Virus record (IMG/VR): IMGVR_UViG_3300006926_000015
Location: 1 to 29,957 of that record
Strand: one strand, 5' to 3'
DNA length: 29,957 nt
Origin: a virus
The notes below the pieces were generated by a model. It was not told the origin of the DNA, made no database searches, and was given only the letters and a program-made list of their open reading frames with translations. Below, piece by piece: positions 2,480-29,957 of the stretch (its first letter is position 1; every line of letters begins with the position of its first letter). The position numbers and the translations under genes are program-made.

Positions 2480-2854
2480 TTATTTTTTATTGGTTATTAA
2501 TTTGGGTGGTTCTCTGTAAAGTGGAACCTCAGCTTTTGGTTTATTAAGTGTATGCACCTCGTATGTTGCATAATCAATTAAAGATTTTTGTTTACGCACC
2601 CATTTATAAAATGTTGGAATACTTAAAAAATCTTGATCTGCTGATCTCACTCCATTATGGAATGCAGTTTGAATATCTGATAAAAATAATTTTCTAAATT
2701 TATTCTCTGTAATTAAATCTTTCGCAAAAGTTTGAGCAAGTAAGGCCATAGTTTTTCCGTCTGTTCGGTGTCCAAGTTCAATTGTTGTTTTTGCAATCAA
2801 GTCATAAATTTTATCCGTCAATTCTTTATGATCCATAAATTTTAATGCTTTCAT
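2480..2854 (-). CDS. Hypothetical replication-cluster protein, 124 aa
   Basis: The 124-aa product is mostly helical, with the stretch LGHRTDGKTMALLAQ (about 27-41) and a C-terminal FYKWVRKQKSLID (82-94) that recall small conserved proteins found next to replisome-organiser genes in flavobacterial phages. I cannot name a family. The ATG overlaps the stop of the replisome-organiser-like gene as ATGA, so the two are probably made in fixed proportion. Position suggests a helicase-loader or replication-accessory role. That is inference from neighbours; no Walker motif is present, so it is not a DnaC-type ATPase. Confidence 0.75.
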   Translation of the reverse strand: MKALKFMDHKELTDKIYDLIAKTTIELGHRTDGKTMALLAQTFAKDLITENKFRKLFLSDIQTAFHNGVRSADQDFLSIPTFYKWVRKQKSLIDYATYEVHTLNKPKAEVPLYREPPKLITNKK

Positions 2855-3510
2855 AAATAATTTTTTCCTTTTTTATATTCATCCAATTGTGCATCAATTT
2901 TTGATGCTGATTTTTTGGGCGCAATAAATTGTGATCTGTTTCTGGTTTCCCAAGTTCGGACGCAAGCTTTCCAATCTTTCATTTTGTTTTTACCAATCAT
3001 CCAACCTTTGCTGATGTAGAAATCTAAAAATGTTTGCACATCAACATCATTATTTCTTTTATCACAATAAACTTTCAGCTCATCAAAAGTAGGTGGTTTA
3101 AATATATAATTATTTATTTTAATTTCTTTATTCTTATTAATAGTTGTTGGATTACTTGCTGACTTGCTGTCAAAATCTTTCACAACTTGTTGTTCAATTT
3201 CTTCACAACTTATCAGATGAATTAAAATTTCGTGATTAATCATAAAAAATTGTCTTGCTGGTGTTCCTTTGCGTTTTGTGACAATGATCTTGTGTTCACG
3301 TAACACTTTCAATGCTTGTCTTTGTTTGTATGCGCTGAGAGTTGTATCTCTTTCAATATTTTTTTCTGTATTAAAAAACCATTGTGAATTTTCAAAATAA
3401 TGATTTTTGGAAATTAAATCAGCCAATAATAAAGTTGCTTCAATTCCAATTGATCTTGCAAGTTTTTTGTTTACAATATAAAATGCTGTTGAACTTAATA
3501 AATTTATCAT
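2851..3510 (-). CDS. Replisome-organiser-like replication initiation protein
   Basis: The 219-aa protein has an N-terminal winged-helix domain (about residues 1-100) in which the segment QRQALKVLREHKIIVTKRKG is the recognition helix and wing. A low-complexity Ser/Asn/Lys linker follows (110-130). The C-terminal module (about 135-190) begins PPTFDELKVYC and contains WMIGKNKMKDWKACVRTWE. This two-part architecture is usual for phage replication initiators of the replisome-organiser or DnaD-like type, which bind the origin and recruit host helicase. It overlaps the DnaA-like gene upstream and the 124-aa gene downstream by ATGA junctions. Binding sites were not identified. Confidence 0.78.
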   Translation of the reverse strand: MINLLSSTAFYIVNKKLARSIGIEATLLLADLISKNHYFENSQWFFNTEKNIERDTTLSAYKQRQALKVLREHKIIVTKRKGTPARQFFMINHEILIHLISCEEIEQQVVKDFDSKSASNPTTINKNKEIKINNYIFKPPTFDELKVYCDKRNNDVDVQTFLDFYISKGWMIGKNKMKDWKACVRTWETRNRSQFIAPKKSASKIDAQLDEYKKGKNYL

Positions 3511-4520: not shown

Positions 4521-4706
4521 TTATTTATTTGTTTTATTTTGCCTACTCTTTTTAAGTTTTTCGGCTTTCACTTTTTCTAATGTCTTGATTCTAAATATTA
4601 TAACTTTTGTATTACAAAAATCACAACACAATCCTTTTTTTAATGGCTCCGCATTATTTCCGAAACCAATTTTTTTCTCTTGACAAATTACACATTTATA
4701 TTTCAT
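4521..4706 (-). CDS. Small zinc-ribbon protein, 61 aa
   Basis: The protein begins MKYKCVIC (CxxC at residues 5-8) and carries CCDFC (27-31), giving the four cysteines of a zinc knuckle spaced by a glycine/asparagine turn; a lysine-rich tail (48-61) follows. Small proteins of this pattern are common beside replication genes in marine phages, with no established role. The ATG is 3 bases past the stop of the preceding 59-aa ORF and the gene ends 2 bases before the SSB-like start. Nucleic-acid or protein binding is plausible. Confidence 0.75.
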   Translation of the reverse strand: MKYKCVICQEKKIGFGNNAEPLKKGLCCDFCNTKVIIFRIKTLEKVKAEKLKKSRQNKTNK

Positions 4707-5893: not shown

Positions 5894-6277
5894 TTATTTT
5901 GAATAATCAGGTGTTATTTCAAGATTTGTTGCATAGTTTTCTCGTACATAATCAAAATCAACTTTCATCATTTTTCCATTTGAATTTTTTACAATGAAAG
6001 GATATTTGTGTGAACGACTTGCATATCCAAATAATTTGAAACCGTCTTTGTCAGTTTTTTCCAAATCATAACCATAAATTTTATTGATTGATAATAAGTC
6101 AAGTTCAATTTTTGATTTTGCACCAGAATTTCTAATTTCCATTTTCATTGAAAAACTGACTTCATCAAAAGAAATATTTCCTTGTTTGATTTTAATTCCG
6201 AATTGTGCTTCTAAATGATCTGTTGATTTTTTAAGTTCTTCTCTGAACTTCCGTAGATTGACTTTGTTCATTTCCAT
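5894..6277 (-). CDS. Hypothetical first early protein, 127 aa
   Basis: This gene stands alone between a canonical promoter (6307-6336) and a strong terminator (5859-5885). A longer frame reaching 6340 exists but would run through the promoter, so ATG at 6277 (or 6271, MNKVNL) is the proper start, about 23 bases past the predicted transcription start. The 127-aa product has a helical N-terminus (1-30), a domain with KIKQGNISFDEVSFSMKMEI (about 24-43), and a C-terminal part (75-110) with GFKLFGYASRSHKYPFIV. I recall small phage proteins with this GNISY..F and G-Y-SR-KYPF pattern but no function. Its isolated unit suggests a regulator or early takeover protein; that is inference. Confidence 0.77.
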   Translation of the reverse strand: MEMNKVNLRKFREELKKSTDHLEAQFGIKIKQGNISFDEVSFSMKMEIRNSGAKSKIELDLLSINKIYGYDLEKTDKDGFKLFGYASRSHKYPFIVKNSNGKMMKVDFDYVRENYATNLEITPDYSK

Positions 6278-6306
6278 TTGTCGTTTTATGTATTGATTAA
6301 TAATAT

Positions 6307-6336
6307 GCAAATATAGACAATAGAAGTGACATTTCA
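6307..6336 (-). promoter_or_regulatory. Leftward Bacteroidota-type promoter for early genes
   Basis: On the minus strand TTG (6336-6334) is followed after 19 bases by TATATTTG (6314-6307). This fits the Bacteroidota consensus TTG / TAnnTTTG with normal spacing. Transcription should start near 6300, giving a leader of about 23 bases before the ATG at 6277. The -33 element lies inside an inverted repeat (6331-6352). Confidence 0.8.
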
Positions 6337-6366
6337 ACACATTTTAGTTGAAAAGTTGCTAACAAC
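6331..6366. promoter_or_regulatory. Operator-like inverted repeats overlapping the early promoter
   Basis: TTTCAAC (6331-6337) and GTTGAAA (6346-6352) form a perfect 7-bp inverted repeat with an 8-base spacer. Next to it AGTTG (6353-6357) and CAACT (6362-6366) form a 5-bp inverted repeat with a 4-base spacer. All four half-sites share CAAC/GTTG. The first repeat covers the -33 box, where a bound protein would block RNA polymerase. The binding protein is unknown. Confidence 0.5.
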
Positions 6367-6407
6367 TGAAAGTTTATGCTTATCTCAAAAGAAGCGATTT
6401 AAAGGAC

Positions 6408-6441
6408 TTTGGGGTGCAAGTGATATATTACACTACCTTTG
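6408..6441 (+). promoter_or_regulatory. Possible rightward promoter, divergent from the early promoter
   Basis: On the plus strand TTTG (6408-6411) is followed after 22 bases by TACCTTTG (6434-6441), matching TTTG / TAnnTTTG with a slightly long spacer. An imperfect palindrome (6419-6434) lies between the boxes. No convincing plus-strand gene follows, so any product would be an antisense RNA against the metallophosphoesterase end. Confidence 0.35.
6419..6434. promoter_or_regulatory. 16-bp imperfect palindrome, operator-like
   Basis: AGTGATATATTACACT pairs at its outer four bases on each side (AGTG/CACT) around an AT-rich core. It sits between the -33 and -7 boxes of the possible rightward promoter, a usual operator position. 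It is short and AT-rich, so chance is possible. Confidence 0.35.
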
Positions 6442-6468
6442 CATAGTAAATGCCTTAGAAGTCGTTAT

Positions 6469-7206
6469 TTACCCCAAGACCATTGGCTCAATTAGTGGCA
6501 TTTTGCCACTATCCAAAACGACTCCACATCCCAAAATTGGTTTTGCTGTATGGAATTTTGCATATCCATAAGCGAAACTTTTATAATCAATTCCACAAGG
6601 ACATTGCATTCCCCATTTTAGATCAGTCAATGAAGCTGTGAAATCAACAAAAGCTTGGGTGTGAATATGGCCCTGAACCATTGAACTTCCCCAATTCTGA
6701 ACTCGTTTAATAATTCCTTTGCCAGAACATCCTGTTCCGTGAGTATATAAAACATTGTCGTGAACAAATTGTTCTTCAAATTTCCAAGTTGGGGTTCCCA
6801 GAACTTCATTAAGATTTCTGACAAAACGCTTATCAATTCCTGCTTCCTCACTTTTGCGAGCAATAATTAAATCGTGATTTCCCAATGTAATAGTTGCGTT
6901 CGGAAATGCCTCAAACCAATCTTTTACTTTCTCAATTGCCTCGTCCAACTCATATTTTGCTCCTGGACTTTCTGTGGAAATTGAATGAAAAGACGAAAAA
7001 TGAGAATCCAAAATATCTCCGGTAAAAGACACTTCCGAACAATTGTATTTATTATAAATATCAATACAATGTCTCAAATAATTCTTGTGAGTGTACGGTA
7101 AATGCACATCCCCAACAATCAACCTATTTACTTTCTTTTTTCTCAAACCTTCAAGAACTGTTATTTCGTGAGGTTTCAGACGAAATCTATTATTTTTTAT
7201 TTGCAT
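6469..7206 (-). CDS. Calcineurin-like metallophosphoesterase
   Basis: All motifs of the calcineurin-like phosphoesterase superfamily are present, counted from ATG at 7206 (245 aa): GDVH (D33, H35), GDILD (63-67), GNHD (109-112), His156 in THG, and GHIH (179-182). The enzyme should bind two metal ions and hydrolyse phosphomono- or diesters; whether the substrate is nucleic acid, nucleotide or phosphoprotein cannot be told. A TTG two codons upstream (7212) is an alternative start. It overlaps the end of the 64-aa holin-like gene by 17 bases and is the last gene of the late transcript. Its place after the lysis cassette is unusual, since phage enzymes of this class more often sit with DNA metabolism genes. 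Confidence 0.88.
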   Translation of the reverse strand: MQIKNNRFRLKPHEITVLEGLRKKKVNRLIVGDVHLPYTHKNYLRHCIDIYNKYNCSEVSFTGDILDSHFSSFHSISTESPGAKYELDEAIEKVKDWFEAFPNATITLGNHDLIIARKSEEAGIDKRFVRNLNEVLGTPTWKFEEQFVHDNVLYTHGTGCSGKGIIKRVQNWGSSMVQGHIHTQAFVDFTASLTDLKWGMQCPCGIDYKSFAYGYAKFHTAKPILGCGVVLDSGKMPLIEPMVLG

Positions 7207-7384
7207 CCGCAATCCCCTGACCTAACACGAGGGCAATTAAAGAATATAGAATTGATTGTGAAACCTCAGGGTCAATTCCCCAAGTGTCGCTTAAAAGTTG
7301 CACAACAATTCCAACTACTGTGTAAAGAAATTTCCGACTACTGAACATTCTTTTTAATGTTTGATAAATGATCCATTTTTGCAT
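7190..7384 (-). CDS. Holin-like small membrane protein, 64 aa
   Basis: A basic N-terminus (about residues 1-17) precedes one hydrophobic segment (18-33, KFLYTVVGIVVQLL) and a second, weaker one (44-57), with a GQGIADANKK end. The LGQGIAD tail is typical of small membrane proteins beside endolysins in Bacteroidota phages. It starts 16 bases after the M15 peptidase stop and overlaps the phosphoesterase gene. It may form the membrane hole or act as antiholin to the 63-aa protein on the other side of the peptidase. Confidence 0.68.
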   Translation of the reverse strand: MQKWIIYQTLKRMFSSRKFLYTVVGIVVQLLSDTWGIDPEVSQSILYSLIALVLGQGIADANKK

Positions 7385-29009: not shown

Positions 29010-29412
29010 CTTTATGTTTTTGATAAATGTCATTGAGGCCTTTCCAAATACTGTGCAAACACGAACCGCAACTGGTTTGATTTGAATAATTAGTTCCGTG
29101 AATTGTATTATATAATTCTATAATTCTAATTTTTTGCTCATAATTTTCTGGTCGTTTATCTTTAAATAATGGATGAATTTCAATTACTGCTGCAATCAAA
29201 TCTTTGTCCAATTCTGTTGGGGTTTCAATGGTTGTGGTCTTCATCCATTTTTTATCTGGACAGGACATTGAAGAAATTTTGGATTTCACTCTCACAAAAC
29301 ATCCACAAGATAAACAAGTTCCTGTTGGTTTAAAATACTTAGGACAAGTCTTGCAAATCTCTAACCTCTCATTGTAGATTGATGCGCTTGTAAAAAATTT
29401 ATTCAGTCTCAT
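29002..29412 (-). CDS. Zinc-ribbon protein, 136 aa
   Basis: The first half carries CKTC (20-23), CLSCGC (33-38) and a further Cys at 51 before PDKKW, a metal-binding pattern common in phage proteins of unknown role (DUF6171-like, from memory). The second half is helical with CGSC at 115-118, perhaps completing a second metal site. It overlaps the sigma-like gene by 14 bases and so may be made with it. Binding to nucleic acid or RNA polymerase is possible. Confidence 0.75.
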   Translation of the reverse strand: MRLNKFFTSASIYNERLEICKTCPKYFKPTGTCLSCGCFVRVKSKISSMSCPDKKWMKTTTIETPTELDKDLIAAVIEIHPLFKDKRPENYEQKIRIIELYNTIHGTNYSNQTSCGSCLHSIWKGLNDIYQKHKDE

Positions 29413-29950
29413 TTAATAATTTTTTTAATTGATTTCTCACTTTGTCTATTGTAGTGAATAAAGAATTTCTGCTGATCTTAGTTTTCTCCGCGAGTTTATC
29501 TAATGTGTTCCCTTCGTAATAATACAATTTAAAAATTTCACGGTCGTACCAATAAAAATCATCAAGTGCTGCATCAATTTTTTCTAAGTTCACATAATTG
29601 TCCACCCCTGTATTATTTGGCAAATCTTGAATTGTGCGGTTCCATTCATTTTTGGTATCAGTCGTATGGTAAATGTCATTCAATTTAGAATAATATTTAT
29701 TGATCTTGTAATAATATTTATTGTTTTTGCAAGTCAGGTTTCTTTTAATCATAATACAACCATAAGAAACAATTCCTTTTATTCCGTCAGTTGTATAAAT
29801 TTTTTTTAAGGTGGCGGGGTTCATTTGTAAAAAAAACAAAAGGGTTTCTTGCACCACCTCATCAATTTCATTTTTATCTTTTGTAAATCTAAATGCCTGC
29901 TCTCGGAATTTTGGAATGTGTTCTGTGATATGAATATATATTTTATTCAA
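29399..29950 (-). CDS. Sigma-70-family-like regulator (sigma region 2/4 layout)
   Basis: The 183-aa protein has an N-terminal region resembling sigma region 2 (about 15-45, FREQAFRFTKDKNEIDEVVQ onward), a Lys/Tyr/Asn-rich linker and a C-terminal region 4 helix-turn-helix (about 130-180: WYDREIFKLYYYEGNTLDKL, then SRNSLFTTIDKVRNQLKKLL). It resembles ECF-type sigma factors. It could direct host RNA polymerase to phage middle or late promoters. The start is TTG at 29950, inside the right repeat copy; the frame offers no ATG upstream. On the circular map it overlaps the 122-aa gene by 8 bases. Region 2 is weak, so the exact class is uncertain. Confidence 0.78.
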   Translation of the reverse strand: MNKIYIHITEHIPKFREQAFRFTKDKNEIDEVVQETLLFFLQMNPATLKKIYTTDGIKGIVSYGCIMIKRNLTCKNNKYYYKINKYYSKLNDIYHTTDTKNEWNRTIQDLPNNTGVDNYVNLEKIDAALDDFYWYDREIFKLYYYEGNTLDKLAEKTKISRNSLFTTIDKVRNQLKKLLNETE

Positions 29951-29957
29951 AATCAGG
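29835..29957. repeat. Right copy of 123-bp terminal direct repeat
   Basis: Identical to bases 1-123. It contains the first codons of the sigma-like gene. Joining the two copies gives one continuous minus-strand gene order with normal overlaps. Confidence 0.95.

Follow-up and report, generated by a model that had tools for sequence, protein, structure and literature searches.

The window is a whole IMG/VR virus record of 29,957 bases, and its positions 6275-6468 are best read as the site of a leftward promoter that serves the early (replication) operon of a marine flavophage transcribed in one direction. Comparison with related loci suggests that this promoter carries a conserved operator of unidirectional early promoters, which appears degenerate in the window and clear in the relatives. 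The operator is built from 9-bp boxes resembling DnaA boxes, and the reading put forward here is that early transcription is controlled by a DnaA-type protein of either the host or the phage (probability roughly 0.55). An earlier note on this DNA had described an operator-rich control region; as a control region for the leftward early genes this is supported, and far better by the relatives than by the window alone. The coordinates of the features are collected in Table 1.

Table 1. Features of the window that bear on the early promoter and its surroundings.
Feature	Position	Strand	Remarks
Metallophosphoesterase	6469..7212	-	phrog_221, E 1e-40; Pfam Metallophos
Rightward promoter-like boxes TTTG-N22-TACCTTTG	6408..6441	+	TTTG 6408-6411, TACCTTTG 6434-6441; no gene
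Near-palindrome AGTTGCTAACAACT	6354..6367	.	contains box 0
Conserved element TTGTTAGCAACTTT (family form TTGTTAATAACTTT)	6352..6365	-	two mismatches from TTGTTAATAACTTT
Inverted repeat TTTCAAC-N8-GTTGAAA	6332..6353	.	perfect 7-bp arms; over the -33 element
Degenerate tandem box TGTTGAAAT	6331..6339	-	25 bp after box 0; overlaps the -33 as in relatives
Early promoter Pe	6308..6338	-	GTTG -33 at 6338-6335, N19, TATATTTG -7 box at 6315-6308
First early gene, 126 aa	5894..6274	-	no family match
DnaA domain-IV-like DNA-binding protein (predicted), 172 aa	3510..4025	-	no AAA+ domain; candidate box ligand
Replication initiation / DnaD-like helicase loader	2851..3510	-	phrogs_9773, 428, 186; adjoins the DnaA-like gene
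Sigma-factor-like protein	29399..29956	-	phrog_36, phrog_1740; open at the right end of the window

All plausible genes of the window are found on the - strand, and the region is the gap between two of them. Upstream of the promoter lies the metallophosphoesterase, the final gene of a late/lysis block (portal, endolysin, phosphoesterase). Downstream lies the early block, in which the 5894-6274 gene is followed by an SSB-like candidate (called by eye, with phrog_993 at E 0.004 as its sole profile match), the DnaA-domain-IV-like protein, the DnaD-like loader and a NinG-like nuclease. With a - strand gene on either side, the region is not the divergent one that the earlier note described. The same one-way arrangement is found in most relatives. 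Four of them (L010, L013, L014, L015) have an additional 162-aa gene on the reverse strand between the phosphoesterase and the early genes, which makes their arrangement a genuinely divergent one; three of the four, all but L015, also show TTGCTAACA (the box variant of the window in reverse) 16 bp before TGTTAATAA. At the right end of the window, the sigma-factor-like gene follows the homologue of the 109-477 gene in four relatives (L009, L010, L012, L019), so a circular or circularly permuted map, transcribed in one direction, is probable. Kept in relatives, this gene is a candidate late regulator. Two RNA features were also observed on the - strand. An Rfam DUF805b RNA (RF02914) was found at 4540-4574, 21 bases upstream of the 4027-4518 gene (49.8 bits, gathering cut-off 35.6). 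At the end of the phosphoesterase gene (6459-6524), the nested stems AGTCGTT/AACGACT and TAGTGGC/GCCACTA form a terminator candidate with a folding energy of -26 kcal/mol (z -2.46) and without a T run.

Bacteroidota promoters generally follow a spacing rule of N19 between the -33 and -7 boxes. Pe has this arrangement, with a -7 box of the housekeeping TANNTTTG type and a TTG-type -33 about 19 bp upstream, and a strict leftward-type promoter was present in just 1.7% of shuffles of the 191 bases. The near-perfect leftward promoter of the earlier note, GTTG-N19-TATATTTG, is confirmed. In the sections available of a study of Bacteroidota promoters, the TANNTTTG box is placed at -12 to -5 relative to the start (PMC9723704); if this holds for Pe, transcription is predicted to start at about 6303.

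The same region had been likened to a temperate-phage switch, with a possible rightward promoter and a palindrome between its boxes. Such a divergent switch with a rightward transcript is highly improbable. The rightward boxes are indeed present, a loose pair of this type arose in only 3.8% of shuffles, and TANNTTTGCATA, common to both -7 boxes, occurs only twice in the window (two occurrences were reached in 6 of 100 shuffles). However, the flanking genes are both on the - strand, the spacer is 22 bases long, a search for a rightward gene returned only open frames antisense to - strand genes, and the pair was absent from the 39 other family contigs scanned. Among the 42 loci described below it recurred only in L004, which is identical to the window over 211/211 bases; P12024S has a single unrelated match, antisense and within one of its early genes. 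A PHROGs scan of 30 window proteins matched no integrase or CI/Cro-type repressor, and the divergent genes and back-to-back promoters of a lambda-type switch were not found. The rightward boxes are probably due to chance, and the palindrome between them falls below 12 of 14 positions. The rightward promoter was rejected as part of a switch on the absence of such a pair from the other family loci scanned, and the likeness to a switch finds no support, with no rightward gene and with most relatives being transcribed one way.

Relatives were collected by a portal-protein search (19 loci) and a portal alignment (at least 80 loci). A readable phosphoesterase stop was found in 45 of the loci listed, and 42 were kept, including L004, Nonlabens phage P12024S (its stop placed by annotation) and Flavobacterium phage 11b. 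L025 was left out for its different gene context and L017 and L044 for the 34 and 19 nt left, while loci in which the contig end cuts the phosphoesterase gene did not enter the counts. Within the first 350 nt past the phosphoesterase stop, TTGTTAATAACTTT (at most one mismatch, same direction) was found in 25 of the 42 loci and was missing at this stringency from the other 17. Its density there is 27 matches in 13.9 kb, compared with 3 in the other 589 kb of these same loci, both strands counted. The window's copy, TTGTTAGCAACTTT, is the sole match of the window to TTGTTARYAACTTT, even allowing one mismatch. In an alignment of the window and nine relatives, chosen as element carriers, TTGTTA--AACTTT is invariant. 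A sense TANNTTTG other than TAACTTTG lies within the first 260 nt past the phosphoesterase in 31 of the 42 loci; TTAATCAA, a candidate conserved leader, was found in 7 of 34 and is weak. In three viral records (L100, L101 and L102, of 41, 80 and 5 kb), the same element and promoter were observed before other early-looking genes.

In the family, 9-bp boxes (TGTTAATAA) are arrayed at a 12-bp pitch, one of them over the -33. Arrays were counted where TGTTAATAA is exact, in the 25 non-redundant loci left after removal of the near-duplicates L013, L014, L015, L019, L065 and L071 and of L023 and L024, further boxes being allowed one mismatch. Same-direction boxes were found at +12 (7), +24 (11), +25 (3) and +36 (2), and once each at +13, +35 and +37, so that 23 of the 26 fall at +12, +24, +25 or +36, compared with 0.33 on average and at most 3 in shuffles. 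In 18 of the 25 loci there is also a box of opposite direction at exactly -16. The family array thus holds up to 3-4 same-direction boxes and usually one opposite box 16 bp upstream. The longest arrays seen, in L012 (14300-14357) and L019 (14290-14347), comprise five successive boxes at a pitch of 12-13 bp.

The array also keeps its distance from the promoter. This was measured in 24 loci that have box 0 together with a -7 box, the latter in relaxed form in three of them, with the window and L004 counted once and L015, L019, L065, L071, L023 and L024 removed beforehand. In 22 of the 24, the distance from the start of box 0, the first and best box of the array, to the -7 box is 46-49 or 56-57 bp, the exceptions being L012 (69) and L066 (34). 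Over the -33, a box starting 20-25 bp ahead of the -7 box was found in 22 of the 24 when up to two mismatches were allowed (shuffle mean 4.5, max 10) and in 16 when no more than one was (shuffle mean 0.8, max 5). In L047 and L064 an extra weak box follows the one over the -33. In the window, box 0 (TGTTAGCAA, 6364-6356 on the - strand) starts 49 bp before the -7 box, as in relatives. The +12 and -16 boxes were not found there, and only a +25 box is present.

These results bear on the two CAAC/GTTG inverted repeats of the earlier note, one of them over the -33 box. Both repeats exist, but they are common by chance: of the shuffles of the 191 bases, 21% held a 7-bp inverted repeat and 40% a 14-mer matching AGTTGCTAACAACT in self-complementarity. 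Four GTTG/CAAC within 44 nt are rare (0.3% of shuffles). The suggested check of half-site conservation was run, and the GTTG/CAAC letters are not kept, but the same positions hold TGTTAATAA-type boxes. The repeats are the family element in diverged form together with a degenerate box over the -33. An ordinary constitutive early promoter, with the window's repeats as an A+T-rich coincidence, would agree with inverted repeats that are not significant alone and with boxes that are degenerate. It is nonetheless quite improbable, as the window matches the family element in both sequence and position (TTGTTA--AACTTT) and shares the box-to-promoter distance of 49 bp with the relatives.

The box variants found are TGTTAATAA, TGTTGATAA, TGTGGATAA and TGTGAATAA, of which TGTGGATAA is the E. 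coli DnaA box TTATCCACA read on the opposite strand. Against TTATCCACA, with at least 7/9 positions taken as our own threshold for a DnaA box, the family TGTTAATAA scores 7/9 and the window's boxes 5/9 and 6/9; box 0 agrees with the family box at 7/9. In the portions of the E. coli literature at hand, DnaA prefers boxes 2-3 bp apart, corresponding to a pitch of 11-12 bp (PMC11317965). Boxes spaced in this way are present in the relatives, with their 12-bp pitch, whereas the window shows only the +25 box.

A candidate reader of the boxes is encoded in the early block itself. The 172-aa product of the 3510-4025 gene scores 30.0 bits against Pfam Bac_DnaA_C (PF08299), just under the cut-off of 31.5. 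The same profile matches 18 of 20 family members in their N-terminal half (E up to 0.01), the window's 5.4e-7 being the best. A predicted model of the protein (pLDDT 87.5) was searched with Foldseek, and the top matches were DnaA domain IV with DNA (3pvp, TM 0.87; 1j1v, TM 0.85, by target length) at rmsd 1.4-1.9 and probability 1.00, with E values of 1.3e-3 to 2.9e-3 and none below 1e-3. The protein is thus predicted by its model to adopt the DnaA domain IV fold. Sequence searches returned less. A six-member profile matched nothing in the PDB at E 0.01, and with twenty members the DnaA chain 2z4r was found at E 0.06, behind a designed protein at E 0.03. No match to two members was found by tblastn in 50,697 phage records, and a PHROGs search with 20 members gave only two single weak matches (E 0.003). 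Within the family, all 24 contigs that extend at least 3.4 kb beyond the phosphoesterase encode the DnaA-like protein, a count that includes near-duplicates and one contig identical to the window, six members having trained the profile. In all 20 aligned phage members an Arg replaces the His of the host DnaA DH(A/S)T motif, so the specificity of the phage protein may differ from that of host DnaA.

As to the regulator, the earlier suggestion of a host product or an early protein agrees with these findings, but the candidates it named do not. The 127-aa protein was reassigned as NinG/Rap-like (phrog_5034, E 1.3e-18) and the 123-aa protein belongs to phrog_2113, of unknown function. A better candidate is the DnaA-domain-IV-like protein or host DnaA.

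Further analysis revealed the element in genomes of the host phylum. A scan of genome contigs for TTGTTAATAACTTT located 25-55 bases before TANNTTTG gave a sample of at least 80 loci, 67 of them Bacteroidota by our own sorting of the titles. Among the matches listed, the element-promoter distances are strongly phased, with peaks at about 39-42, 47-52, 58-64 and 66-69 bp. The 47-51 bp range holds 33 of 68 Bacteroidota-titled matches among those listed (expected 11.0) and, with all titles included and homologous downstream DNA collapsed, 21 of 50 clusters among those listed (expected 8.1). By homology cluster, 16 of the 58 downstream proteins among the matches listed are replication or dNTP proteins: thymidine kinase (4), NrdD (4), dNK (2), DnaN (2), DnaA (2, Firmicutes), DnaB and an NrdG-like radical SAM protein. 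The other 42 of these 58 include MraW, YidC, Lon, TypA, CdaA and MgtC. For identity, 20 of the 58 proteins, and 10 from the 30 Bacteroidales loci below, were examined, picked partly for likely function.

Within Bacteroidales, TTGTKRATAACTT before TANNTTTG was matched in 83 of 295 genomes, and 17 of the 30 matches taken as loci lie at 47-51 bp (expected 4.8). Eight of the 30 loci precede genes for DnaE (3), RNR (2), GyrB, UvrD and DnaN, the gene names for L290 and L271 resting on first-residue likeness to L288 and L272; the other 22, ORF-less loci counted, do not. In four contigs (L137, L141, L173, L182) the element was observed at exactly 49 bp from a similar promoter. No ORF of 60 aa begins in the next 200 nt there, and the promoter may serve an RNA gene. 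A wider, hand-copied Bacteroidales table (105 rows, one exact duplicate removed; 23 in total for the reversed-pattern control) placed 49 of 104 at 47-51 bp (expected 16.8). Boxes with a TG centre behave alike, and those with GG and GA centres number just 13, of which 7 lie at 47-51. In Flavobacteriaceae the strict phased element is rare, found in 10 of 299 genomes against 1 for the reversed-pattern control.

Canonical TGTGGATAA was seen beside the host element 7 times (shuffle mean 0.34), and 5 of the 7 are in records not titled Bacteroidota; the 67 Bacteroidota-titled loci hold 2 (shuffle mean 0.30, max 2). As this restriction removed most of the canonical-box signal, the DnaA reading was lowered and a rival raised, in which a different Bacteroidota regulator of replication and dNTP genes reads the boxes and the phage borrows a host regulon. 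This rival is possible, though doubtful. It would account for the 2/9 positions at which TGTTAATAA and TGTGGATAA differ, for the scant enrichment of the canonical box in Bacteroidota-titled loci, and for the phasing, which is common to many activators. It also agrees with the Flavobacteriaceae, where the TA-centred and canonical boxes (TGTTAATAAC with TGTGGATAAC) co-occur in only 1/80 and 0/80 genomes. On the other hand, TG-centred boxes lie in phase in Bacteroidales, as do GG and GA together, though these are only 13. Enrichment near the element also holds for the wider class TGTNNATAA, which occurs 21 times in Bacteroidota-titled loci against a shuffle mean of 7.2 and a maximum of 15. The 12-bp pitch and the DnaA-like protein in every long enough family contig likewise argue for a DnaA-type reader.

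Within 600 nt upstream of dnaA in 30 Flavobacteriaceae genomes, no box cluster was found (1 TGTGGATAA and 2 TGTTAATAA in all). A link to the host oriC upstream of dnaA in this family was dropped on this result, all 30 located loci being without a cluster. The result also speaks against the DnaA reading, as do the degenerate boxes of the window, the 17 loci without the element, the rarity of the phased element in Flavobacteriaceae, the many downstream host genes outside replication, and the sub-threshold Pfam score and Arg substitution of the phage protein. The array could instead serve primarily as the replication origin of the phage, where the DnaA-like protein binds, the DnaD-like protein loads the helicase, and the neighbouring promoter serves both the early genes and the transcriptional activation of the origin. 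This is compatible with control by a DnaA-type protein and, as the primary role, unlikely. The 14-base element is almost absent elsewhere in the loci, the gap after the phosphoesterase is 70% A+T, and the initiator-like and loader-like genes are adjacent, as an origin would have it. However, a box follows the -33 element even as the number of boxes changes, the same element precedes many host promoters, and the GC skew shows no turn.

Under control by a DnaA-type protein, the operator upstream of the promoter would consist of DnaA-box-like 9-mers read by host DnaA on entry, by the phage DnaA-domain-IV-like protein, itself an early product, or by both. Once occupied, a good upstream box on the right helix face would help RNA polymerase. 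As the phage protein accumulates, the array would be filled down to the -33 and early transcription would be shut off. The positions, conservation, phasing, pitch and predicted fold come from the analysis itself; we infer the identity of the binder and the direction of control, the latter borrowed from E. coli nrdAB (PMC8203912). In the accessible parts of two papers, nrdAB is activated at low and repressed at high DnaA-ATP (PMC8203912; PMC11317965), and nrdD, nrdG and replication genes are listed as members of the DnaA regulon of E. coli (PMC11317965).

In its action the region is likeliest to resemble a DnaA-box promoter, of which the window copy would be only a putative member. As in the double DnaA boxes described in these parts for E. 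coli nrdAB and nrdDG, the tandem 9-mers of the relatives lie 2-3 bp apart, and replication and dNTP genes are the targets. Where E. coli DnaA promoters have GG at the box centre, TA stands here; the array holds 3-4 putative DnaA sites, and it belongs to an early operon of a phage. A phage parallel is the lambda pR/pO region, an early promoter region with DnaA boxes that is influenced by host DnaA, as described in the relevant extracts of two papers (PMC3985674; PMC8203912). The present region is likewise a phage early promoter region with boxes, here DnaA-like; the lambda boxes lie in those extracts downstream of pO, whereas this array lies upstream and reaches the -33. Lambda is not known to encode a DnaA-like protein. 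The closest parallels in gene order are P12024S (Inhavirus) and 11b, in which lysis genes, the metallophosphoesterase and a gap with a Bacteroidota -7 box also precede early replication genes. In the parts examined, unlike the present family, these two phages have neither an exact TGTTAATAAC nor a homologue of the DnaA-like protein, and P12024S retains only a TTAGCAACTT stretch.

In the literature searched, no description was found of the phage element or of a DnaA transcription regulon in Bacteroidota. A wider proposal, offered tentatively, is that a Bacteroidota-wide DnaA regulon acts through TTGTKRATAACTT on one helix face ahead of replication and dNTP promoters. A large family of uncultured marine flavophages would have taken it over with a 3-4-box array at the early promoter and an AAA+-less DnaA, reduced to the DNA-binding domain, which would monitor its own abundance and compete with host DnaA both for this promoter and for host replication genes. 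With the present analysis, a vague operator-rich region becomes a defined cis-element with a geometry and named candidate binders. If the DnaA reading is true, the host replication cycle would be tied to phage early transcription through DnaA in Bacteroidota, and the known phage proteins would gain a family that combines the DNA-binding domain of DnaA with the lack of an ATPase.
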